Positions 1 through 9,283 of a stretch of DNA of 35,613 nucleotides are shown here, piece by piece. Made by a program: the position numbers and the translations under genes. The notes beneath the pieces were generated by a model. That model made no database searches and was not told where the DNA came from. It saw only the letters and a list, made by a program, of their open reading frames with translations. This stretch comes from Bacteroidales bacterium (GTDB lineage: Bacteria > Bacteroidota > Bacteroidia > Bacteroidales > P3): assembly GCA_017530105.1 (NCBI GenBank), contig JAFXMW010000135.1, forward strand, positions 1 to 35,613, given 5' to 3'. Numbering within the stretch: the first letter of the stretch is position 1; each line of letters starts with the position of its first letter.

Positions 1-447
1 CGCTACTACAAAACAAAACTCCTGCCTCGCCAACGCACTAACCGCAACATGCACGACCTAATGAACGCTGCTACCGACCTCCTCTGCATCAAAGAAAACA
101 TCTACGAAGAGCAAACCATCAAAGACCTTGCCATCAAAAACATCTCTCGGTATGTACGCCTTTTCAGCAATGGCAACCGCTACATGCTCGTCATCTACAA
201 CGAAGAGGCTATCCCAAGGGTAGTTCCATGGATAGCCACAAGCGACTCCCTGCCCAAAGAGCGCATCAAAGTCTACACCTTTTCCTACAACAACTACGCC
301 TACGACGACGACTTTGCCGAAGTAGAAGACCGCGTGCAACTCTGTGCCTTGCCCGCCGCCATCTACGAAGCCTACCGCCGCGTGCTGCCCAAAGAAAACC
401 GCTACTACGATGACGAACCCATCGACAGAAAGGAGGACGTGGCATGA
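1..447 (+). CDS. C-terminal part of probable DNA methyltransferase (5' truncated by window)
   Basis: The reading frame is open from the first base, so the ATG at 49 is probably internal and only the last 148 codons of a longer gene are visible. The fragment contains a run around LLCIKENIYEE, then an alternating hydrophobic/charged stretch (YMLVIYNEEA, IKVYTFSYNNYAYDDDF) and ends near IYEAYRRVLP. I recall this tail style from site-specific adenine methyltransferases of type III-like loci, but no catalytic motif (DPPY or FxGxG) lies inside the window. The TGA overlaps the ATG of the next gene (ATGA at 444-447), which implies translational coupling with the Res-like protein. The methyltransferase identity is mainly inferred from this tail and the neighbour; it could be another subunit. 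Confidence 0.5.
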   Translation, partial: RYYKTKLLPRQRTNRNMHDLMNAATDLLCIKENIYEEQTIKDLAIKNISRYVRLFSNGNRYMLVIYNEEAIPRVVPWIATSDSLPKERIKVYTFSYNNYAYDDDFAEVEDRVQLCALPAAIYEAYRRVLPKENRYYDDEPIDRKEDVA

Positions 448-2747
448 AGACTTTCGACTACCAGCAAGAGGCCGTCCGAGACCTGCTGCGCCACACCATG
501 CAGATGCTCACCCTCAACGGCACTCGTCACACCCTTGTCTTCCGAGCCCCCACAGGCAGCGGCAAAACCGTGATGACCACCATGGCCTTGGAGCAAATAA
601 CCCTGCAAACCCGTGGCAATGGGCACGAGCTTGTCATGATATGGATTGCCCCTAATGCCCTACACGAGCAGAGCTACTTCAAGATGAAGAGCTACTTCAG
701 CGAAACTCGCGAACTGCGTCCCGTAATGTACGACGAACTGGACCACACTGAGGGACTGCTGCACCCAGGAGAAGTGCTGTTCGTCAACTGGGAAAGCATC
801 AACAAGGAGAAGAACATCATGGTACGCGAAACAGAGCAGGGATATACGCTCTTCGAGATAACCCGCCGCACCCGCGAAGCCGGACACCCCATCATCGTTG
901 TCATCGACGAAGAGCATGACTTCTGGTCCGCTACTGCCGACAAGAGCAAACAGGTGTTGGACAAGATAGACCCCAAGATAGAGCTTCGTGTCAGTGCCAC
1001 CCCACGCACTACAGGCGAACAGTTGGTTAACATACCCCGCGAACGAGTGGTGGAGGAAGAGATGATTAAAGAGGGCATTGTCCTCAACGAGGAGGTACGC
1101 AAAGACATCAACGACGAGAGGAGCCTGACGCAACACCTTCTCGAGCTGTCATTGCGCAAGCGGCAGGAAATTGCCGAGGCCTACCGTCAACTGGAGGTAA
1201 ACATCAACCCCCTGTTGCTCATCCAGCTGCCCAACGACAACAACGACAAATTAACCGACGACGACAACCGTTTGATAGAGTCCATCAAGAACTATCTTGA
1301 GTTGACCAACTGGAGCATGACCATCGACAACGGCCGCCTGGCCGTATGGCTCAGCAAGGAGAAAGAAAACCTCAACGGCATAGAGCAGCCCGACAGCATG
1401 GTCAATGTGTTGCTTTTCAAACAGGCAATAGCCAAAGGCTGGGATTGTCCGCGTGCCGCCGTCCTTCTTATCTTCCGCCGTCTGAACAGTTCGGAATTCA
1501 CCATGCAGACCGTTGGACGTATCCTGCGTATGCCCGAACAGCACTTCTACCCCACCCCGCTGCTCAACAAAGGTTATGTCTATACCGATGTCAGCAGCGA
1601 CCGCATCGAGATTGTACAAGACGGCATAGGCTACATAAGCCGACTGGTAGCCAAGCGGCGAGACGACATCACCCTTATCTCCCTTGATGGGAAAGCCTCA
1701 AGCCGTCTCAGCGAGACCCGCAACCGTCTGGGCAGCGACTTCAAACAAACCCTGCGACAAACCTTCATCGACCACTGGGGATTGGCACAAACCAGACTTA
1801 ACTTCGACGACGACCCCTTCCCCTGCGGCGACGAAAGCCCTTATGCCGTCAACCGACGCAGTGCCGAACTCAAAGCACACGTCACCTTCGACGTGAAGCA
1901 AGTGCAGGTGGAGATTCCCGAAAATGTAGATTTAAACCTCGAAGGGGTTACCGAACTTGCAGGACATAAAGTGGGCTTTGCCCGACGGGGCAGCGAGTTG
2001 CGTCAACTATTCGGGATATTCTGCACCAGTCATATAGGGCCTTTCGAGAAACTCTCAGCTGCCACTTTGGGACGCTGTCTGTTAGAACTGATGGAAGAGT
2101 TGTTTGAATGTTATGAGAACGAAGCCGTGAAAATCATCCTCAGCACCAAGAACGACAACAACCGGAAATATGCCGACATCGTGAACAAAGCCATCTCAAC
2201 TTATGCACGACACCACGACGAACGCAAACGCAAGGCCGCCGAACGTGCCATAAACGACATACATTGGGAACTGCCAGCCGATAGGCTCTACGAAGAGGAG
2301 ACCAATGAAGCCATCAACGGTATGGACAGCCACGCCCTGCTCCCCTTCATCCGTCAACGAGGAGCCTCCAGTCCCGAAAAGCGGTTTGAAACTTTCCTCG
2401 AAGAGCATAAGGAGTATCTAGACTGGTGGTACAAGAACGGTGACAAAGGCCGTGACCACTACGCCATTGCCTATACCAAAAGCGACGGCAGCAAAAGCCT
2501 CTTCTATGTGGACTTCATCATCAGGATGAAAAGCGGGCGCATCTTGCTGTTCGACACCAAGAGCGCCAACTCTGACTCCGAAGCACCCGCCAAGCACAAC
2601 GCCTTGATAGACTATGTGCGCGCACACCAAGACATGGGCGGTGGCATAATCGTAGAGAACAGCGGCAACTGGCTGTACAGCGACACCTATATCAACAACA
2701 CCACCGACCTCAGTGGCTGGAAAGCCTTCTTCCCCGACCAAGAATAG
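444..2747 (+). CDS. Type III restriction Res-like DEAD/DEAH helicase-nuclease
   Basis: A 767-residue superfamily 2 helicase with a C-terminal nuclease-like segment. Visible motifs are Walker A APTGSGKT (35-42), DEEH (155-158), SAT (184-186) and motif VI QTVGRILRMPE (355-365). Near the C-terminus, VDFIIRMKSGRILLFDTKS (689-707) fits a PD-(D/E)XK core with D690 and D704-x-K706, in which aspartate replaces the more usual glutamate of ExK. In type III systems Res translocates on DNA and cuts when its partner methyltransferase finds unmodified sites. The gene starts inside the stop of the upstream gene. An AGGAGG at 431-436, 7 bases before the ATG, is unusually strong for Bacteroidota. Helicase identity is very likely; nuclease activity is inferred from the motif. 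Confidence 0.85.
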   Translation: MKTFDYQQEAVRDLLRHTMQMLTLNGTRHTLVFRAPTGSGKTVMTTMALEQITLQTRGNGHELVMIWIAPNALHEQSYFKMKSYFSETRELRPVMYDELDHTEGLLHPGEVLFVNWESINKEKNIMVRETEQGYTLFEITRRTREAGHPIIVVIDEEHDFWSATADKSKQVLDKIDPKIELRVSATPRTTGEQLVNIPRERVVEEEMIKEGIVLNEEVRKDINDERSLTQHLLELSLRKRQEIAEAYRQLEVNINPLLLIQLPNDNNDKLTDDDNRLIESIKNYLELTNWSMTIDNGRLAVWLSKEKENLNGIEQPDSMVNVLLFKQAIAKGWDCPRAAVLLIFRRLNSSEFTMQTVGRILRMPEQHFYPTPLLNKGYVYTDVSSDRIEIVQDGIGYISRLVAKRRDDITLISLDGKASSRLSETRNRLGSDFKQTLRQTFIDHWGLAQTRLNFDDDPFPCGDESPYAVNRRSAELKAHVTFDVKQVQVEIPENVDLNLEGVTELAGHKVGFARRGSELRQLFGIFCTSHIGPFEKLSAATLGRCLLELMEELFECYENEAVKIILSTKNDNNRKYADIVNKAISTYARHHDERKRKAAERAINDIHWELPADRLYEEETNEAINGMDSHALLPFIRQRGASSPEKRFETFLEEHKEYLDWWYKNGDKGRDHYAIAYTKSDGSKSLFYVDFIIRMKSGRILLFDTKSANSDSEAPAKHNALIDYVRAHQDMGGGIIVENSGNWLYSDTYINNTTDLSGWKAFFPDQE

Positions 2748-2764
2748 ACAAAAAAGCAAACACC

Positions 2765-2986
2765 ATGAATAAAGGAATCGACACCACCTTTGTACACTAC
2801 GGCATCCGCCGCGAAGACCTCGACACTATCGAACAGATTTGCCAACGCCACGAGGTGGACTTTGAATGGCTGAAAGAAGAGCTGCTACGAGCCTACCACA
2901 CCCACCGTGCCGAAAGCATTGAGATGAGCGATGACGAGACATCCAATATTATCGAAGCCGCCATCATGAAAATAAAACAGAGCTAA
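2765..2986 (+). CDS. Small DNA-modification-system-associated protein, 73 aa
   Basis: A short, acidic, predicted helical protein with no signal peptide or membrane segment. It begins 17 bases after the helicase stop and ends 3 bases before the SMC-like ATPase start, so it is embedded in the operon. The segment REDLDTIEQICQRHEVDFEW looks like two helices around a turn, followed by a charged helix. Very small genes at this position are, as far as I recall, annotated as associated with DNA modification systems, but no biochemical role is known to me. It may be an adaptor between the Res-like protein and the DndD-like ATPase; that is inference. Its gene spacing and codon usage support a real gene despite its size. 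Confidence 0.75.
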   Translation: MNKGIDTTFVHYGIRREDLDTIEQICQRHEVDFEWLKEELLRAYHTHRAESIEMSDDETSNIIEAAIMKIKQS

Positions 2987-2989
2987 GCC

Positions 2990-4993
2990 ATGATAATACA
3001 ACGCATCAAAATCAGGAACTACAAGACATACCTGTCGCTCGACCTCGACCTTAGCGTCGACGACGAACGCAGCATAGTACTGATAGGCGGGCAGAACGGC
3101 GGTGGCAAGACCACCCTGTTCGAAGCCATCTGCGGTGTCCTCTACGGACTCAAAATCCAAAACCGCGACCAGTTCACCGAACTGCTCAACGACGGGGCAC
3201 GAGGACGTGAGACACCCAAGATTGAACTGGAGCTCTCTTTCTCGGGGCAGGTGCTGTCGTCCACAAAGCGATATGTGATGCGTCGCACCTATATTCTCAA
3301 CAACAGCGGCAAACCCGTGGAGAGTGTCATGCTGAACATGGACGGCACGATGTTCACCTACGGCAGTGCCTCGTCAGCCCGCGACCGTGCCGAAGGAGAA
3401 CAGCAGGTGAACAAAATCATACGTGCCAACCTGCCCGAAGAGCTAAGCAAATACTTCCTCTTCGACGCCATGCAGACCAGCGAGTTGATGAAGAAAAACG
3501 TCTTTGCCCAAATCATACAGGATAACATTGAGAATGTGATGGGCTTTAAGAAGTTTGTCCAACTGCGCGACTGCTCGGAGCGGGTGCAGCAGCAATGGGC
3601 TCAACGCCGCCTCGAAGCCCAGCAGGAGGCCGAAGCCTACGACCGCTTGTGCGAAGAGAAGAAAACCCTACAAAAACAATTGGAGCAGAATGCCGCCGAC
3701 CAAGACGCCATCTACCGCTATCTTGCCGACATACAGGAACTGTACAACGCCGCCAAGAACGGTGCCGCAGAAGCCGAGGCACAGCGCAACAAACTCCTGC
3801 AAATCACAAACCAGATAAAGACCATCGGCGACCGTGCAGGTAACTACTGCGAGGAACTGAAAGCCTTTGTGGACGAGATAGAGCAGAATGTCTTCCTCTC
3901 TCACTTAGCCTACTCGATGAAAGAAGAGATAGAACAAATCGTCCACCTACGCGAGACCGTGCGCAAAGAACAGGAGAACAGTTATACTGCCGACATGCTG
4001 CGCGACATAACCCACCGCCTGATGCAATATTTGCAAAGCCTCTCGCTCTGCGTGCCGAACATCGATGAACAGAACATTGTGGACCATCTCGTTGCCGAAC
4101 AACAGTCGATGCAAACGGGCGACCCCTACAGCTATTTAGACAACAACGAAGTGGAGAACCTTGCCACGTTGCAGAAAACCAACTCCTACAACGGCTTCCC
4201 GTCGCTTGACCGGATGAGACAGGATATCAACGACCAACTTGACGACCTGGAGAACCTCAACCGACAAAAAGCATCGCTTGAATCGTCGTTGCAACAAGGC
4301 AACGAAGAGCTGATTAAGGACTATGAGCATCGCAAGCACCTGATAGAACAGTTGAAAAACGAAGCGCACGAACTGGAAACCAAGATAAAAACCATCGACA
4401 ACAAGATTCATAAATTCGACATCCAAATTCAGCAGGAACCCGACCCACGTTTCGACACCCTTGTGAAACTGAAACCCATCTTCACCGAAATCAGCAGTGC
4501 ACTATTGAAGCGCAAAAAGACACAAATCGAGGCCGAAATGAAGCAACAACTCAACAAACTGCTGTTGGCCTACGAAGGGTGTATAGAGCGCGTGGAGCTG
4601 AGCGACACATTGGAGCAATTCAACATCCGCCTGTTCCACACCCATGGCAACGAAATAAGCCTCACCAACCTCAACGCCGCCTCGAAACAGATTTTCATCC
4701 AAGTGTTGCTGAAGGTGCTACGCAACCTGGGCGACTACAACCCGCCAGTGATGATAGACACTGTGATGGGTGTGCTGGACGAAGCCAGCCGCGATGCACT
4801 GATGGAAAACTATTTTCCAAGGCTCTCATCCCAAACAATCCTGCTGTGTACCACATCTGAAATACGAAAGGATAGGGACTATGAACGCTTAGAACCCTTC
4901 ATCGCCAAGACCTACACCCTAATACGTAACGTTGAAGAGCAATGCACCACAGTAGAGGAGGGCTATTTCGGTGTTCCCCTTGACCTAACCTAA
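2990..4993 (+). CDS. DndD-like SMC/Rad50-type ATPase
   Basis: A 667-residue ABC-type ATPase split by a long coiled-coil region. The N-terminal head has Walker A GGQNGGGKTT (33-42). The middle (about 190-490) is rich in Glu, Gln, Lys and Leu heptads and lacks a CxxC zinc hook. The C-terminal head has a degenerate signature LNAASKQ (561-567) and a Walker B region VMIDTVMGVLD (587-597) followed by YFPRLSSQTILLCTTSEI. The latter closely resembles the IDTPLGRLD...YFP...QVILLSTD pattern of DndD from phosphorothioation systems, where DndD acts as an ATPase with DndC and DndE. No DndA, DndB or DndC gene is visible here. The next gene carries a DndE-like segment, which strengthens the DndD assignment. 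General SMC-like ATPase is certain; the Dnd family link is strong but judged by eye. Confidence 0.85.
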   Translation: MIIQRIKIRNYKTYLSLDLDLSVDDERSIVLIGGQNGGGKTTLFEAICGVLYGLKIQNRDQFTELLNDGARGRETPKIELELSFSGQVLSSTKRYVMRRTYILNNSGKPVESVMLNMDGTMFTYGSASSARDRAEGEQQVNKIIRANLPEELSKYFLFDAMQTSELMKKNVFAQIIQDNIENVMGFKKFVQLRDCSERVQQQWAQRRLEAQQEAEAYDRLCEEKKTLQKQLEQNAADQDAIYRYLADIQELYNAAKNGAAEAEAQRNKLLQITNQIKTIGDRAGNYCEELKAFVDEIEQNVFLSHLAYSMKEEIEQIVHLRETVRKEQENSYTADMLRDITHRLMQYLQSLSLCVPNIDEQNIVDHLVAEQQSMQTGDPYSYLDNNEVENLATLQKTNSYNGFPSLDRMRQDINDQLDDLENLNRQKASLESSLQQGNEELIKDYEHRKHLIEQLKNEAHELETKIKTIDNKIHKFDIQIQQEPDPRFDTLVKLKPIFTEISSALLKRKKTQIEAEMKQQLNKLLLAYEGCIERVELSDTLEQFNIRLFHTHGNEISLTNLNAASKQIFIQVLLKVLRNLGDYNPPVMIDTVMGVLDEASRDALMENYFPRLSSQTILLCTTSEIRKDRDYERLEPFIAKTYTLIRNVEEQCTTVEEGYFGVPLDLT

Positions 4994-5009
4994 TAAAGAC
5001 TCGACCGCC

Positions 5010-6587
5010 ATGAACATAGAATTTTCAAACCTGAGACAAGCCGAAGGCATAGTTGACGAACTACTGGAATTGAAAAACAGGATAGAGCAGCGCATCAACC
5101 TGAAACAGAATTCCGGCAAAAAGAGCGTGCCGCTGAACAACAACATGGTGATGCGCATCTGTTTCCTCACCGGCTTGAGTCTGCGTGCCAAACGTGACAT
5201 GAAAGCCGTGGAAGCTGTTGTCCTATCGAAAAACGGCCTTCGCATAGTACCCAGTTTCTTTACCAAGAACGACCTTGGCAAGATTTACTCGCCGCTGCTG
5301 AAGCTACGCTATGCCGACTGCAACGTGAACTGGGAAGAGCCCGCCACCCTCTCACGCATAGTGGCGCATGAAATACTCTGCGGACGTAACTATCTGATGG
5401 ACAGCAACCACCTGGAAGAATGTCTTATGGCACAATATGGCAGCCGCAAGGCAACGGTGGGAATACCACGTCTTGACATCGCTATAGGCACCTATGACGG
5501 CGAGATGGAGGCCACCCTCGACCTAAACGGACGCAATGTGAACAACACACAGATACTCATCGCAGGCAGCACTGGTAGCGGCAAGACCAACCTACTTGCC
5601 CTCTTGGTCAACCGCCTGCGCCAAGAGACAGCGGACACCAATTACCCTGTCAACTTCCTGCTCTTCGACTACAAAGGCGAATTCTCCGATCCCAAAAACC
5701 GTAATTGGCTCAATTATCTCGAGGTCGATGAAACATGCATCCTCGACCCCATGCAACATCCTCTGCCCTTCACCCCTTTCCGTGACTTTACAAACAGTAA
5801 CATCAACGAGGTAAACCTCTACTCGACGGCACTGGCTACGGCACTGACCGCCTTGGACAACACCAAAATCAGTGCCAACATGGCAAACCGCCTCAGCGAG
5901 GCCATCATGGATGCCTACAGTCAGACAAACTACAGACCCATCTCCTTCCAACGGCTGCTCAATTGCTATCAGTCAAAACTAAAAGACCCCGACACGATGG
6001 ACAGCATCAGCTCGGTGCTAAGTCAGATTGTGCGAGGCAACATCTTTTCCGACAGAGACGAAACCCCGCTGGTCGAGAACAGTTTCATCGTGAAACTGGA
6101 CAGCTACCCCAAAGAGGGAGTGATAGCCAAAGCCATCGTATATTTCCTAATTTCGAAACTAAACACCATCTACGAACAATTGCCGCCACAGCACGTCACG
6201 GAAGAGTGCGTCGAACTACGGCACTTCACCATTATCGACGAAGCTCACTATATGCTCGGCTTCGATAACCAGCCATTGAGGAACCTCATAGCCGTGGGGC
6301 GGAACAAAGGCATGAGTATCATCCTTGCCACCCAAAGCATGGACAGCTACCGCAGTAAATACTTCGACTTCTACACCAATGCCCAGTACCCACTCATCAT
6401 GAAACAACAAAGCATCAACGACAGCGTACTGCGCGACCTCTATGGCCTAAATCAACGCGAGATGCAGGAACTACGGCAAGACATCGCCGCCCTCGGCAAA
6501 GGCGAACTACTCATCAAGAACCAAGATGCCTACCTCCTTGGCATGGGTAAGAAATGGAAGAAAATCAACGTAACACGATTGATATAA
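5010..6587 (+). CDS. HerA-type ATPase with DndE-like N-terminal domain
   Basis: A 525-residue protein. Residues 150-525 form a HerA/FtsK-like motor: Walker A GSTGSGKT (186-193), LLFDYKGEF (217-225), Walker B IIDEAH (408-413), a GRNKG motif (430-434) and ATQS (440-443). HerA proteins are hexameric DNA pumps that usually work with a nuclease. Residues about 10-130 have no motor motif but resemble DndE in layout: a helix, a hydrophobic helix (MRICFLTGLSL), then IYSPLLKLRY and a helix ending GRNYL. DndE binds DNA in phosphorothioation complexes. The gene follows the DndD-like ATPase by 16 bases and closes the operon. The motor is certain; the DndE-like part is a by-eye assignment. Confidence 0.85.
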   Translation: MNIEFSNLRQAEGIVDELLELKNRIEQRINLKQNSGKKSVPLNNNMVMRICFLTGLSLRAKRDMKAVEAVVLSKNGLRIVPSFFTKNDLGKIYSPLLKLRYADCNVNWEEPATLSRIVAHEILCGRNYLMDSNHLEECLMAQYGSRKATVGIPRLDIAIGTYDGEMEATLDLNGRNVNNTQILIAGSTGSGKTNLLALLVNRLRQETADTNYPVNFLLFDYKGEFSDPKNRNWLNYLEVDETCILDPMQHPLPFTPFRDFTNSNINEVNLYSTALATALTALDNTKISANMANRLSEAIMDAYSQTNYRPISFQRLLNCYQSKLKDPDTMDSISSVLSQIVRGNIFSDRDETPLVENSFIVKLDSYPKEGVIAKAIVYFLISKLNTIYEQLPPQHVTEECVELRHFTIIDEAHYMLGFDNQPLRNLIAVGRNKGMSIILATQSMDSYRSKYFDFYTNAQYPLIMKQQSINDSVLRDLYGLNQREMQELRQDIAALGKGELLIKNQDAYLLGMGKKWKKINVTRLI

Positions 6588-6602
6588 TTACACCGAGGGA
6601 AA

Positions 6603-6636
6603 AGGAAGGGGAATTGCCAAAGCACTCCCCCTTCCT
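6603..6636. terminator. Putative bidirectional terminator between convergent genes
   Basis: AGGAAGGGG (6603-6611) pairs with CCCCTTCCT (6628-6636) across a 16-base loop. It sits 16 bases after the HerA stop and about 45 bases from the stop of the opposing small membrane protein gene. No long T tract follows on the plus strand, so it may be inefficient. Confidence 0.5.
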
Positions 6637-6681
6637 AAATTGACATTGTCAATAAACACTTTCCGACAACTCCAGCTTGAA

Positions 6682-6927
6682 TTATTTCTTCTTTATCAGA
6701 GAGATAATCCACAGCAGCAGGCAGGCACCTATCACCGAAGTGACAAGGCAACCAATAATGGTCGTTCCCCAATGAATACCAATCCATGCAAGGACATTTC
6801 CTCCGATGAAACCGCCTACAATTCCGACGAGAAGATTAACAATAAAGCCGAAGCCAGAACCTTTCATAAGCCTGCCAGCCAGAAAGCCGGCCAAAGCACC
6901 GATAATGATACTAACAATAATATTCAT
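6682..6927 (-). CDS. GlsB/YeaQ/YmgE family small membrane protein
   Basis: An 81-residue, Gly-rich, very hydrophobic protein with three likely membrane helices. The opening IIIGALAGFLAGRLMKGSGF and the middle VGIVGGFIGGNVLAW match the repeated GxxxG-rich pattern of the transglycosylase-associated/GlsB-YeaQ family, which is stress-induced in several bacteria and of unknown molecular function. The length equals the family norm of about 80-90 residues. It stands alone: the defence operon converges on it from one side, and the LytTR gene upstream is separated by 338 bases containing a large inverted repeat. A -7-like box lies about 85 bases upstream. The family assignment is confident; the role in this organism is unknown. 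Confidence 0.85.
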   Translation of the reverse strand: MNIIVSIIIGALAGFLAGRLMKGSGFGFIVNLLVGIVGGFIGGNVLAWIGIHWGTTIIGCLVTSVIGACLLLWIISLIKKK

Positions 6928-7011
6928 AATTTAACAATTTAGAATTAAAACAAACACATAACGCAGAATATGCCAAAATGTTGCAGCGTCTCTAAATTTT
7001 AACATTTCAAG

Positions 7012-7019
7012 CAAAAATA
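7012..7019 (-). promoter_or_regulatory. Possible -7 promoter box for the GlsB-like gene
   Basis: On the minus strand the bases read TATTTTTG followed by C, matching the Bacteroidota -7 consensus TAnnTTTG. A TTG lies 16 bases upstream, shorter than the usual 19-21, so the -33 part is weak. It would give a leader of about 80 bases. Confidence 0.4.
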
Positions 7020-7127
7020 CACCATATTTAACATTCAATATGAAAAGAGCACCAACAATGGATATTCTGCCAGAAGCAACAACATCCCCTTTCAAAGGTC
7101 ATTGGTCACAGCAAAAAAAGGTGCAGG

Positions 7128-7232
7128 TTCGCTCGTTATGCGGTAGTACAGGGTCAGTTCTCCCATATTTCTCCCATACAGCATGGGAGAAATATGGGAG
7201 AAATATGGGAGAACTGAGGCCGAACGAGCGAA
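7128..7232. repeat. 105-base composite inverted repeat with 11-base internal tandem unit
   Basis: Outer arms 7128-7137 and 7223-7232 (TTCGCTCGTT/AACGAGCGAA) and inner arms 7155-7177 and 7194-7216 (23 base pairs, perfect) form one long stem. The right arm contains an ATGGGAGAAAT unit at 7183-7193 and 7194-7204, with a partial third copy, so an alternative perfect 18-base-pair hairpin 7160-7177/7183-7200 with a 5-base loop is also possible. It starts 33 bases past the stop of the LytTR gene. It could act as a terminator, an mRNA-stabilising structure, or a MITE-like element. Confidence 0.8.
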
Positions 7233-7265
7233 GGTGGGCAGGAAAAAACGGGAGGACGGCGTGGA

Positions 7266-8138
7266 CTATTTGGCGAACTGCCTCACGACATCCTCGGCGT
7301 AGGTTTTGGATACGGGGATGAGTCGGTCGCAATAAGCAATTTCGAGCACCAACCCGTCCTTCTCCTTACGCAAATACCTGACATTCTCGAGATTGACGAG
7401 ATAGCCTCGATGGCAGCGCACCATGCCCTGCGAGGAGAACGTTTCGGAGATGTTTTTGAGCGAGTTATGGAGAACCAGCGAGTCCTCTTTATCGCCACTG
7501 AGATAATGAATTACCGTATAGTTGTCGGCTGCCTCGATATAGAGAACATTGCTGCGTTTTGTTACAAAAACAAGACGTTCACCCTTGTCGAAAAACTGAA
7601 TAACATCGTCGCGAGACTCTTCTTCGGCCTGGGTTTGTGTTTCGAGCAACTGGTTGGTGAGGGAAGCTATTTCGAGACGTTTCTGCTGAAGGAGAAAAAC
7701 GAGAGCGGTGACGATGTAAGGGACTGTCAGCAGTGCAATAATATCGACAAAGACACGACCCACAAGGTCGGGAAGCCCAACCGAGTCGTTTTCGTTGAGA
7801 AGCCAAGCAGCGGTTGAGAGGGAAGCCACCAGCACGAACAGTTCAACGCCAATCCAAACGAGATAGGAACCGAGCTTCATACTGATACGTTTCTGCGTGT
7901 TGAAGAGAAGCCAGCGGCTGACAGAGAAGACAACAAGCCCGATGAGGACAAGGATGATGGAGTACAGCCGATAGTCGAGGGAGCTGAGCAGTCCGGTGGG
8001 TTTTAACAATCCGATAGGCCTATAAACAGCGACAAAAAAGATACAAAAAAGCACCACAAGGGCAAAAAAGAGCATGATGGTCTTTTTCTGTGTCAGGAAC
8101 TTCGGAATATATATTTTTAACTGATTTACAAGTGTCAT
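7266..8138 (-). CDS. Membrane-anchored LytTR-family transcriptional regulator
   Basis: A 290-residue protein with four predicted membrane helices (about 21-39, 58-77, 91-114, 128-150), a short coiled coil (150-175) and a C-terminal LytTR DNA-binding domain (about 187-288). The domain shows LYIEAADNYTVI, MVRCHRGYLVNLENV and IPVSKTY, all typical of LytTR. There is no receiver domain, so the membrane part probably replaces it as the input module. A related protein is encoded at 27319-28164. A pair of 16-base direct repeats with 20-base period sits just upstream of the start and is a candidate autoregulatory site. The gene reads away from the divergent fab run. The domain call is secure; targets are unknown. 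Confidence 0.85.
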   Translation of the reverse strand: MTLVNQLKIYIPKFLTQKKTIMLFFALVVLFCIFFVAVYRPIGLLKPTGLLSSLDYRLYSIILVLIGLVVFSVSRWLLFNTQKRISMKLGSYLVWIGVELFVLVASLSTAAWLLNENDSVGLPDLVGRVFVDIIALLTVPYIVTALVFLLQQKRLEIASLTNQLLETQTQAEEESRDDVIQFFDKGERLVFVTKRSNVLYIEAADNYTVIHYLSGDKEDSLVLHNSLKNISETFSSQGMVRCHRGYLVNLENVRYLRKEKDGLVLEIAYCDRLIPVSKTYAEDVVRQFAK

Positions 8139-8157
8139 CCAGTGTATTTATTTAACA

Positions 8158-8193
8158 TTTTTCACCCAATATAGGTGTTTTTCGCCCAAAATA
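8158..8193. promoter_or_regulatory. Direct repeat pair, candidate LytTR binding site
   Basis: TTTTTCACCCAATATA (8158-8173) and TTTTTCGCCCAAAATA (8178-8193) match at 14 of 16 positions with a 20-base period, about two helical turns. LytTR proteins are known to bind paired direct repeats with about that spacing. The pair lies 20 bases upstream of the LytTR start and 140 bases upstream of fabH. Confidence 0.45.
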
Positions 8194-8332
8194 ACGCCAT
8201 TTAGTCAACATTATTGCGCAAAATGCTAAATTTAACATTAAGGAATGAAACTTTCGTCGTTTCTTTGCAATTTGATTCAAAGAAAAAAAAGGCCGAAAAA
8301 ACCTTTTTAATTAAAGAAACTAAAACTAATTT

Positions 8333-9283
8333 ATGAAGATTATTGGAACCGGTAGCGCTTTGCCTAAGAAAGTCGTGACAAACGACATGCTTACAGAGTT
8401 CTACGACACCAGCGACGAGTGGATACAGGCCCGTACAGGCATTGTAACACGTCGCATCATGACTGACGAAAGCTTATTAGATTTAGCCATCACAGCCGCT
8501 CAACGCGCATTGGAAGCCTCCGGACTGAAGGCGGAGGAGCTTGACTACATTCTTTGTTCGAATGTGAACAACAATTATGTGTTTCCCTCGCTGAGCAGCA
8601 TGGTTCAGGGAAAAATAGGAGCCACCTGCCCCTGTATGGACATTAGGAATGCCTGCGCAGGGTTTGTATATGTGATGGACTTGGCCGACATGTACATAAA
8701 GACCGGCCGTGCAAAGAGAATTCTTCTGCTCACGGCAGAAGAGCCCACCCGTTTCTGCAGCTGGAAACAGAGAGAGACCAGCGTGCTGTTTGGCGACGGA
8801 GCCGCCGCCGCAGTGGTGGAAGAAGGCGGGGAGTATCTGGGCGCCCGAGTGACCACCATCTGCAACACAGAGGTCTTGTACCAACGCAGACGTTTGGAGC
8901 CGACCCCGTTTGAGGTGGAAGGCGTATACATCGACCAGCCCATGGTGATGCAGGGACGCGAAGTGTTCCGCATGGCGGTTACCAATTGCTCGAAAGAGAT
9001 CAGCACCCTGTTGGAAGACACAGGCTACAAGATTGAGGACGTGAAGTTCTTCCTGCTGCACCAAGCCAACATGCGTATCATCAAAGGCATTGAGCAATAT
9101 TTGGGTGGCAAGCCCGAACAGTTCCCGACGACGGTACAGAAATACGGCAACACTTCGTCGGCGAGCATGGCCATATTGCTCGACGAGCTGGTGAGGGAGA
9201 ACCGGATAGAGCGCGACGACCTGCTGGTGATGAGCGGGTTCGGCGCCGGGTTCACCACTGGTAGCTGTATGTTAAAGTATTAA
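8333..9283 (+). CDS. fabH: 3-oxoacyl-ACP synthase III (KAS III)
   Basis: A 316-residue thiolase-fold condensing enzyme. It catalyses the first condensation of an acyl-CoA starter with malonyl-ACP in type II fatty acid synthesis. The FabH triad is visible: Cys108 in RNACAGF, His243 in LLHQAN and Asn273 in YGNTSSAS. The N-terminal DEWIQARTGI motif and the C-terminal GFGAGFTTG are also typical. It opens a run of five fatty-acid synthesis genes on the plus strand. The 194-base region upstream is shared with the divergent LytTR gene; it holds a TTTCTTTGC at 8260-8268 that resembles a weak -7 box. A paralogue in a specialised lipid pathway is possible, since other fabH copies may exist outside the window. 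Confidence 0.9.
   Translation: MKIIGTGSALPKKVVTNDMLTEFYDTSDEWIQARTGIVTRRIMTDESLLDLAITAAQRALEASGLKAEELDYILCSNVNNNYVFPSLSSMVQGKIGATCPCMDIRNACAGFVYVMDLADMYIKTGRAKRILLLTAEEPTRFCSWKQRETSVLFGDGAAAAVVEEGGEYLGARVTTICNTEVLYQRRRLEPTPFEVEGVYIDQPMVMQGREVFRMAVTNCSKEISTLLEDTGYKIEDVKFFLLHQANMRIIKGIEQYLGGKPEQFPTTVQKYGNTSSASMAILLDELVRENRIERDDLLVMSGFGAGFTTGSCMLKY

Follow-up and report, generated by a model that had tools for sequence, protein, structure and literature searches.

A five-gene operon at a contig end

The stretch of DNA analysed here (the window, 35,613 nucleotides) starts at the first base of contig C131 and belongs to a 2.75-Mb MAG that is 82.7% complete. Five genes on one strand lie at its start, and the first of them is incomplete because the window begins at the contig end. 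The following features were assigned:

1-447, + strand: ORF 1, C-terminal part of a predicted type III Mod, open at the contig start
444-2747, + strand: ORF 2, Res-like SF2 helicase with a C-terminal PD-(D/E)xK-type nuclease, 767 aa
2376-2561, + strand: Res nuclease core, E645, D690 and D704-x-K706, conserved without exception in 41 sequences, that of the window among them
2765-2986, + strand: ORF 3, small protein of the Sp-DndD family (PF20306), 73 aa
2990-4993, + strand: ORF 4, DndD-like ABC ATPase without Zn-hook motif, 667 aa
5010-5444, + strand: predicted DndE-fold domain of gene 5, residues 1-145 (AlphaFold2 and Foldseek)
5466-6587, + strand: HerA/FtsK-type motor of gene 5, fused to DndE and closest to DndH (PF01935, 7es4)

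The Mod and Res reading frames share a 4-base ATGA overlap and the next gaps measure 17, 3 and 16 bases, in agreement with a preliminary description of this DNA, which had given gaps of 3-17 bases and one ATGA overlap. Gene 5 as a whole spans 5010-6587 on the + strand and encodes 525 aa. In positions 1-7300, 4 promoter-like and 7 terminator-like matches were obtained, which is not above the number in shuffled sequences, and neither tRNA genes nor Rfam families were detected in the window. Three genes follow 3' of the operon (window 6682-9283; 81, 290 and 316 aa). Their homologues are also located downstream in loci L018 and L019, the homology of the 81-aa gene being a 26-residue match only, and the right flank is therefore stable in those loci.

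Families, motifs and folds of the gene products

The 148 residues of gene 1 share 78% identity with the C-terminal end of the complete 597-aa Mod of locus L018. Four full-length Mod relatives that were scanned all contain the N6_N4_Mtase domain (PF01555, Pfam), and the PADLOC model MTase_III matched two full-length relatives (309 bits for L018). The profile of the Mod family hit the solved type III Mods with high significance (6k0w, 1.1e-79; Mbo45V, 1.4e-74; EcoP15I Mod, 8.8e-68). Type III Mods carry a target-recognition region between the DPPY and an FxGxG-type motif, and enzymes of this kind make N6-methyladenine. The corresponding features, in the order DPPY, variable region and FAGSGT, were seen in the relatives, the window itself holding the C-terminus only. 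In 32 complete Mods, mean pairwise identity is 0.21 for the stretch from DPPY to FAGSGT and 0.70 and 0.66 for its flanks; such low identity between the motifs is expected if specificity changes. With regard to phase-variable repeats, a run of nine equal bases is present in 7 of 56 Mod genes (200 bases 5' included), and locus L096 has two Mods in tandem. Judged by its sequence, gene 1 is a member of the type III Mod family; the preliminary description had named it a probable methyltransferase.

Gene 2 matched ResIII (PF04851, 57.6 bits, Pfam) and the PADLOC model REase_III (67 bits). The helicase motifs (Walker A T-G-x-G-K-T, D-E-x-H, the A-T of SAT and Q-x-x-G-R-I-x-R) do not vary in any of the 41 sequences, and the DTK nuclease motif noticed earlier corresponds to D704-T-K706, whose D and K are invariant in the same set (41/41, window included). 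A Pfam scan found no HKD/PLD domain in gene 2, and the PbeA models of PADLOC cover its helicase part only. EcoP15I Res was absent, up to E=1, from the PDB matches of the profile made from the 41 Res sequences, which indicates that gene 2 is a distant kind of Res. Upon scoring the 190 genomes of the window's family for Res of this cassette type, 13 genomes reached at least 945 bits, G101 reached 409 bits and the remaining 21 matches stayed below 70 bits. This score gap shows cassette-type Res to be sharply distinct from other Res.

The product of gene 3 matched the Sp-DndD family (PF20306) with E=2.8e-8 and 34.2 bits (Pfam cut-off 27.2). For gene 4, DndD was the top PADLOC match with 216.9 bits, PbeC reaching 193 bits. 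Its earlier naming as a DndD-like ATPase can hence be kept, although the protein stays below the curated DndD equivalog cut-off (TIGR03185, 197.2 bits versus 245.85). Membership of gene 4 in the Zn-hook CxC clade was considered and rejected, CxC or CxxC occurring in 2 of 39 DndD-like ATPases. None of 34 small proteins and 65 N-terminal domains matched PbeB, PbeD or DndE in PADLOC, a library that may hold no PbeB/PbeD models.

The motor of gene 5 had been recognized as HerA from the outset and gave 42.2 bits with PF01935 (Pfam cut-off 23.2). Its nearest structure by sequence and by fold is the C-domain of DptH/DndH (7es4; motor profile E=2.3e-14, Foldseek TM by target length 0.83; the model of the whole protein has a pLDDT of 85.7). 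The DndH models of PADLOC match gene 5 with their C-terminal part only, e.g. with positions 1339-1701 of 1715. The front of the protein had been described as DndE-like. Residues 1-145 were modelled with a pLDDT of 90.0 and a pTM of 0.87 (AlphaFold2), and all of the best 16 PDB matches in Foldseek were DndE (4lrv, 5wtu, 7x4e), with probabilities of 0.66-1.00, TM by target length of 0.58-0.73 and E-values of 0.038-1.1; no match was obtained at E<=0.001. DndE sequence models yielded no match with the window's gene 5. PF08870 was found in 5 of 65 N-terminal sequences (best E 0.00048), with DUF2703 ahead of it (9 of 65), and the hhalign comparison of 25 N-termini with 4 DndE-HerA N-termini was non-significant (probability 0.45%). 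The call as DndE was thus carried by the fold search and not by sequence comparison, and it is by fold only that the front of gene 5 is predicted to be DndE, with two ribbon-helix-helix units.

Conservation of the cassette and separate occurrence of its modules

Loci were picked by likeness to gene 5, and the best 80 of 159 were analysed. They were searched first with the proteins of the window itself; the counts reported here are those of a second search with profiles. Since the profiles were built from the same loci, their scores are partly given by construction, but the positions of the genes are not. Every one of the 80 loci has DndD; the small protein was detected in 73 of them, Res in 70 and Mod in 64. 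Some of the genes counted are split or truncated at a contig end (e.g. Mod of L021 and L033, DndD of L030 and L067 and Res of L094). The complete set, running from Mod through the Res-like gene, the small protein and the DndD-like gene to DndE-HerA, was found in 64 of the 80 loci, which speaks against a chance arrangement. Among the remaining 16, 15 stop at a contig end no more than 700 bases from the last gene seen, and L051 is a remnant with a DndD fragment and HerA only. According to their record titles, 76 loci have Bacteroidota names, the exceptions being L069, L076, L084 and L087. Carriers include the isolates Phocaeicola coprophilus DSM 18228 (L031) and Xylanibacter ruminicola D31d (L039). 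Two 21.6-kb cassette stretches on one Pontibacter arcticus contig, L091 and L093, do not differ at a single base, owing either to recent duplication or to an assembly artefact.

Median gaps between successive genes were 3, 5, 11 and 4 bases (starts of the longest ORFs). The gap did not exceed 30 bases between Mod and Res in 48 of 64 loci, between Res and the small protein in 54 of 70, between the small protein and DndD in 63 of 73 and between DndD and HerA in 77 of 80. Wider gaps were often filled, and 23 inserted ORFs of at least 100 aa were located between cassette genes. Ten of these were scanned and eight could be named: RhuM (twice), Abi_2, a YhcG/DUF1016 nuclease, SLFN_AlbA_2, PIN, ParE and a MqsA/SocA-like protein. 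Insertions of defence or toxin type are present in L023, L026, L029, L037, L038, L040, L055 and L057. Mantel correlations amounted to r=0.93 for DndD-HerA, 0.75 for Res-DndD, 0.74 for Res-HerA and 0.67 for Mod-Res, and to 0.57 for Mod with both DndD and HerA (50 loci including the identical pair, 0 of 999 permutations as high, host phylogeny uncontrolled); this correlation may reflect nothing more than co-inheritance.

Of the 190 genomes in the window's family, 10 (own included, one in two pieces) encode gene 5 at an identity of at least 52%, and 4 more genomes have a homologue at 24-25% identity. An even draw of 392 genomes of the phylum gave two gene 5 matches besides the window's own, both without a cassette around them. 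These two are of a dispersed kind, and the full cassette is therefore rare. Its distribution is patchy, as is often the case with defence genes. Spread by plasmids or phages was considered and rejected: none of 7 matching plasmid records covered 80% of gene 5, and of 3 phage records one did so, a 15.6-kb metagenomic 'Bacteriophage sp.' record. This record, from human faeces (MT835906.1:1295-2872), contains a full-length gene 5 homologue of 56% identity and may be a bacterial contig.

DndE-HerA accompanies cassette-type Res (at least 409 bits) in 10 of 14 family genomes. In G080, G156, G169 and G101, Mod-Res stands without the other three genes and is followed by unrelated genes; the contig end truncates Mod in G156 and G169, G080 has an incomplete Mod no more than 190 bases from a contig end, and the Mod of G101 is complete. 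As Res occurs without DndE-HerA in 4 of 14 genomes, the two modules, Mod-Res on the one hand and the small protein, DndD and DndE-HerA on the other, are not obliged to work as a single machine. In G080 (L177:8098-11490), Res is 96% identical to that of the window and the match to the small protein ends after 11 codons. The remnant is followed by 196 bases that match neither the window nor L018 nor L019, and then by an operon-flanking gene; no DndD or HerA match was found in this stretch, and the window's next two flanking genes were not found in it either. A deletion may account for this arrangement, which is seen on one MAG contig where misassembly is possible.

These genomes bear on the possibility of a single obligate, Pbe-like machine, in which Res, the small protein, DndD and DndE/HerA would assemble into a single effector that prevents DNA unmarked by Mod from replicating, with Mod as marker only. 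Such a machine would account for a gene order equal to PbeA-B-C-D (PMC6459918), for the tight spacing of the genes and for the correlation of Res with DndD (r=0.75) and HerA (r=0.74). However, Mod-Res occurs without the other three genes in the four genomes named above, and in G080 the small-protein gene is broken after a Res 96% identical to that of the window, with the flanking gene as the next gene, if this single contig is correctly assembled. We regard the obligate machine as unlikely.

In a distant genus (8 genomes), DndE-HerA was found in 4 and DndD in 5 genomes, and the small protein in 4 of 6 genomes searched, there below the Pfam cut-off (86-96 aa, profile 89-92 bits). All three genes of the second module are present in G502, G633 and G634, mostly on separate contigs, and DndD and HerA are adjacent in G634 only. 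Cassette-type Res was detected only in G632, without DndD or DndE-HerA and on a contig that ends about 200 bases past Res. G633 has a cassette-type Mod (705 bits) on a contig ending soon after, and because the contig stops near Mod, Res may simply be unassembled there. It looks as if the second module were dispersed or domesticated in this genus, and assembly gaps may explain part of the pattern (G633, G635). Genomes and loci recorded from the genus are G502, G494, G633, G634 and G635 (L101, L102, L124, L125, L141-L145 and L155-L158).

Two further loci, L133:3750-9798 and L135:3688-9522, encode a sigma-70 region 4 HTH protein, a small protein (Sp-DndD, 2e-10 and 1.2e-6, respectively), DndD and DndE-HerA (DndE front PF08870, 3.3e-8 and 5.3e-14); the large protein at these loci, of 734 or 666 aa, is without PADLOC match. 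The search for modification genes relied on the Mod profile, which matched no ORF in 14 kb. The five genes had initially been viewed as one unit, a view that is not supported: G080, G156, G169, G101 and the distant genus reveal two separable modules.

The finding that each module occurs apart, along with the loci L133 and L135 that are free of Mod-profile matches in 14 kb, would also fit two neighbouring independent systems, i.e. an ordinary type III pair beside a self-sufficient Dnd-type set. However, the genes hold to one order and strand in 64 of the 80 loci, at median distances of 3-11 bases, which is beyond expectation for mere neighbours and makes such independence quite improbable.

The DndC model TIGR03183 was used to search 40 carrier genomes, namely the 10 from the family and those that contain 30 of the 80 loci. 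A match above cut-off was obtained in one of them, G211, where DndC sits in a separate DndC-DndD-DndE-like locus, and one further match was below cut-off; in the window's own genome (82.7% complete) no match above cut-off was found. In control searches, true DndC gave 9e-126 and 5 of 14 control genomes matched below cut-off. Hence a phosphorothioate system that recruits its sulfur genes from elsewhere in the genome, which the best-known role of DndD and DndE in sulfur modification and the DndC of G211 would favour, can be set aside as extremely improbable, DndC being above cut-off in 1 of 40 carriers, some of which are incomplete MAGs.

More distant cousins in the same family (L103-L106, 24-25% identity) have a gene of 445-491 aa followed by DndD and then by DndE-HerA. 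This gene scores as DndC in L103 (433 bits) and L104 (429 bits); those of L105 and L106, left unscored, look alike. The DndE model TIGR03184 matched the N-terminus of the fusion in L103 (6.2e-8) and L105 (6.8e-10), below cut-off in both cases. Since a type III Mod occupies the place of the sulfur genes in the operon studied here, it is natural to suppose that methylation replaces the sulfur chemistry. This had been put forward in the preliminary description, and we infer the same from the position of Mod and the near-absence of DndC. The description had further made its case depend on five-gene synteny, on missing sulfur genes and on ATPases of the Dnd families; the order is indeed conserved (64 of 80 loci, with 15 others cut by contig ends) and DndC is nearly absent, whereas the DndD-like ATPase falls short of the TIGR03185 cut-off (197 versus 245.85).

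Proposed working of the operon and comparison with known systems

We consider it probable that the operon encodes a methylation-marked restriction system, in which a Dnd-type scanning motor is appended to Mod-Res, as two modules in one operon. In such a system, presumably one of defence, Mod would recognise a short site via its hypervariable target-recognition region and methylate host DNA, most likely at N6 of adenine. The Res-like SF2 translocase would move on DNA and cut through its PD-(D/E)xK nuclease. A dimeric DndD-like ABC ATPase and the DndE DNA-binding domain would scan DNA, while the fused HerA/DndH-type motor would grip and pump it. DNA that lacks the Mod mark would be retained, translocated or presented to Res, and would be prevented from replicating or entering. 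The system would then work as PbeABCD does, with Mod replacing the sulfur genes. The second module would act downstream of marking by Mod, and the two modules may be in contact.

More tentatively, the small protein, DndD and DndE/HerA may constitute a pluggable scanning and pumping module that is joined to different readers of self and non-self: DndC for sulfur, type III Mod-Res for methylation and a sigma-region-4-type HTH protein that has no Mod next to it. We put this forward as a possibility that stops somewhat short of being probable. If it is true, one motor enforces different marks.

The question touched by this operon is the role of DndD and DndE outside sulfur chemistry. The pair has been retained in dozens of loci, nearly all of them from Bacteroidota, with a methyltransferase next to it and in most cases no DndC, which allows this role to be studied independently of sulfur. 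Natural minus variants are available in the form of genomes with Mod-Res only and of genomes with the small protein, DndD and DndE/HerA in which no cassette Res was detected. The operon suggests that bacteria mix and match a methylation and cutting pair with the scanning and pumping parts of sulfur systems.

The closest parallel in gene order is PbeABCD, a cassette of helicase-nuclease, small protein, ABC ATPase and DndE that exerts a mark-dependent block of viral DNA replication without visible cleavage (PMC6459918). In the same source, Xiong et al. suggested a pairing of Pbe with methyltransferases, as 155 of 320 solitary pbeAC lie near such genes. CxC-centred systems are treated in PMC10853773, which describes DndE/CxC cores with cytosine methylases (section 16) and proposes that two-RHH DndE, beside its ABC ATPase, scans DNA (sections 13 and 14). 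The operon resembles these systems in that its four non-Mod genes follow the Pbe order and in that methyltransferase genes are often near Pbe (PMC6459918). It differs from them in having a type III Mod, a PD-(D/E)xK nuclease instead of the HKD nuclease of Pbe, no CxC hook and a DndE fused to a HerA motor (PMC6459918, PMC10853773).

A DndE-HerA fusion adjoining a DndD-related ATPase has already been published (PMC10853773, section 22, citing Krishnan et al. 2020), and it is this arrangement, also present in L103-L106, that the operon shares, along with a DndH-like motor. The cousins carry DndC, as scored for L103 and L104, and L103 has a DGQHR gene as well; Mod, Res and the small protein are found here instead. 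With respect to type III restriction-modification (EcoP15I, Mbo45V), Mod is a clear member by sequence and Res has the ResIII helicase and nuclease motifs, but Res is short (767 aa) and distant and three extra Dnd-type genes are present in 64 of 80 loci. The motor is nearest to the C-domain of DndH/DptH (7es4) of DndFGH; however, gene 5 encodes 525 aa with a DndE front compared with some 1,700 positions in DndH (PADLOC model length), and none of the five operon genes is DndF or DndG.

The mixture of parts had seemed to be without precedent, which is not supported, given that the Pbe order (PMC6459918) and both DndD with DndE-HerA and methylase-linked DndE/CxC cores (PMC10853773) are already published. 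The literature searched, including parts of PMC10853773, PMC6459918, PMC12707154 and PMC5608340, contained no description of DndD and DndE-HerA coupled to a type III Mod-Res. Hence DndD adjoining DndE-HerA is already known, and what appears new, within the parts of the literature covered, is the coupling of this pair to a type III Mod-Res.
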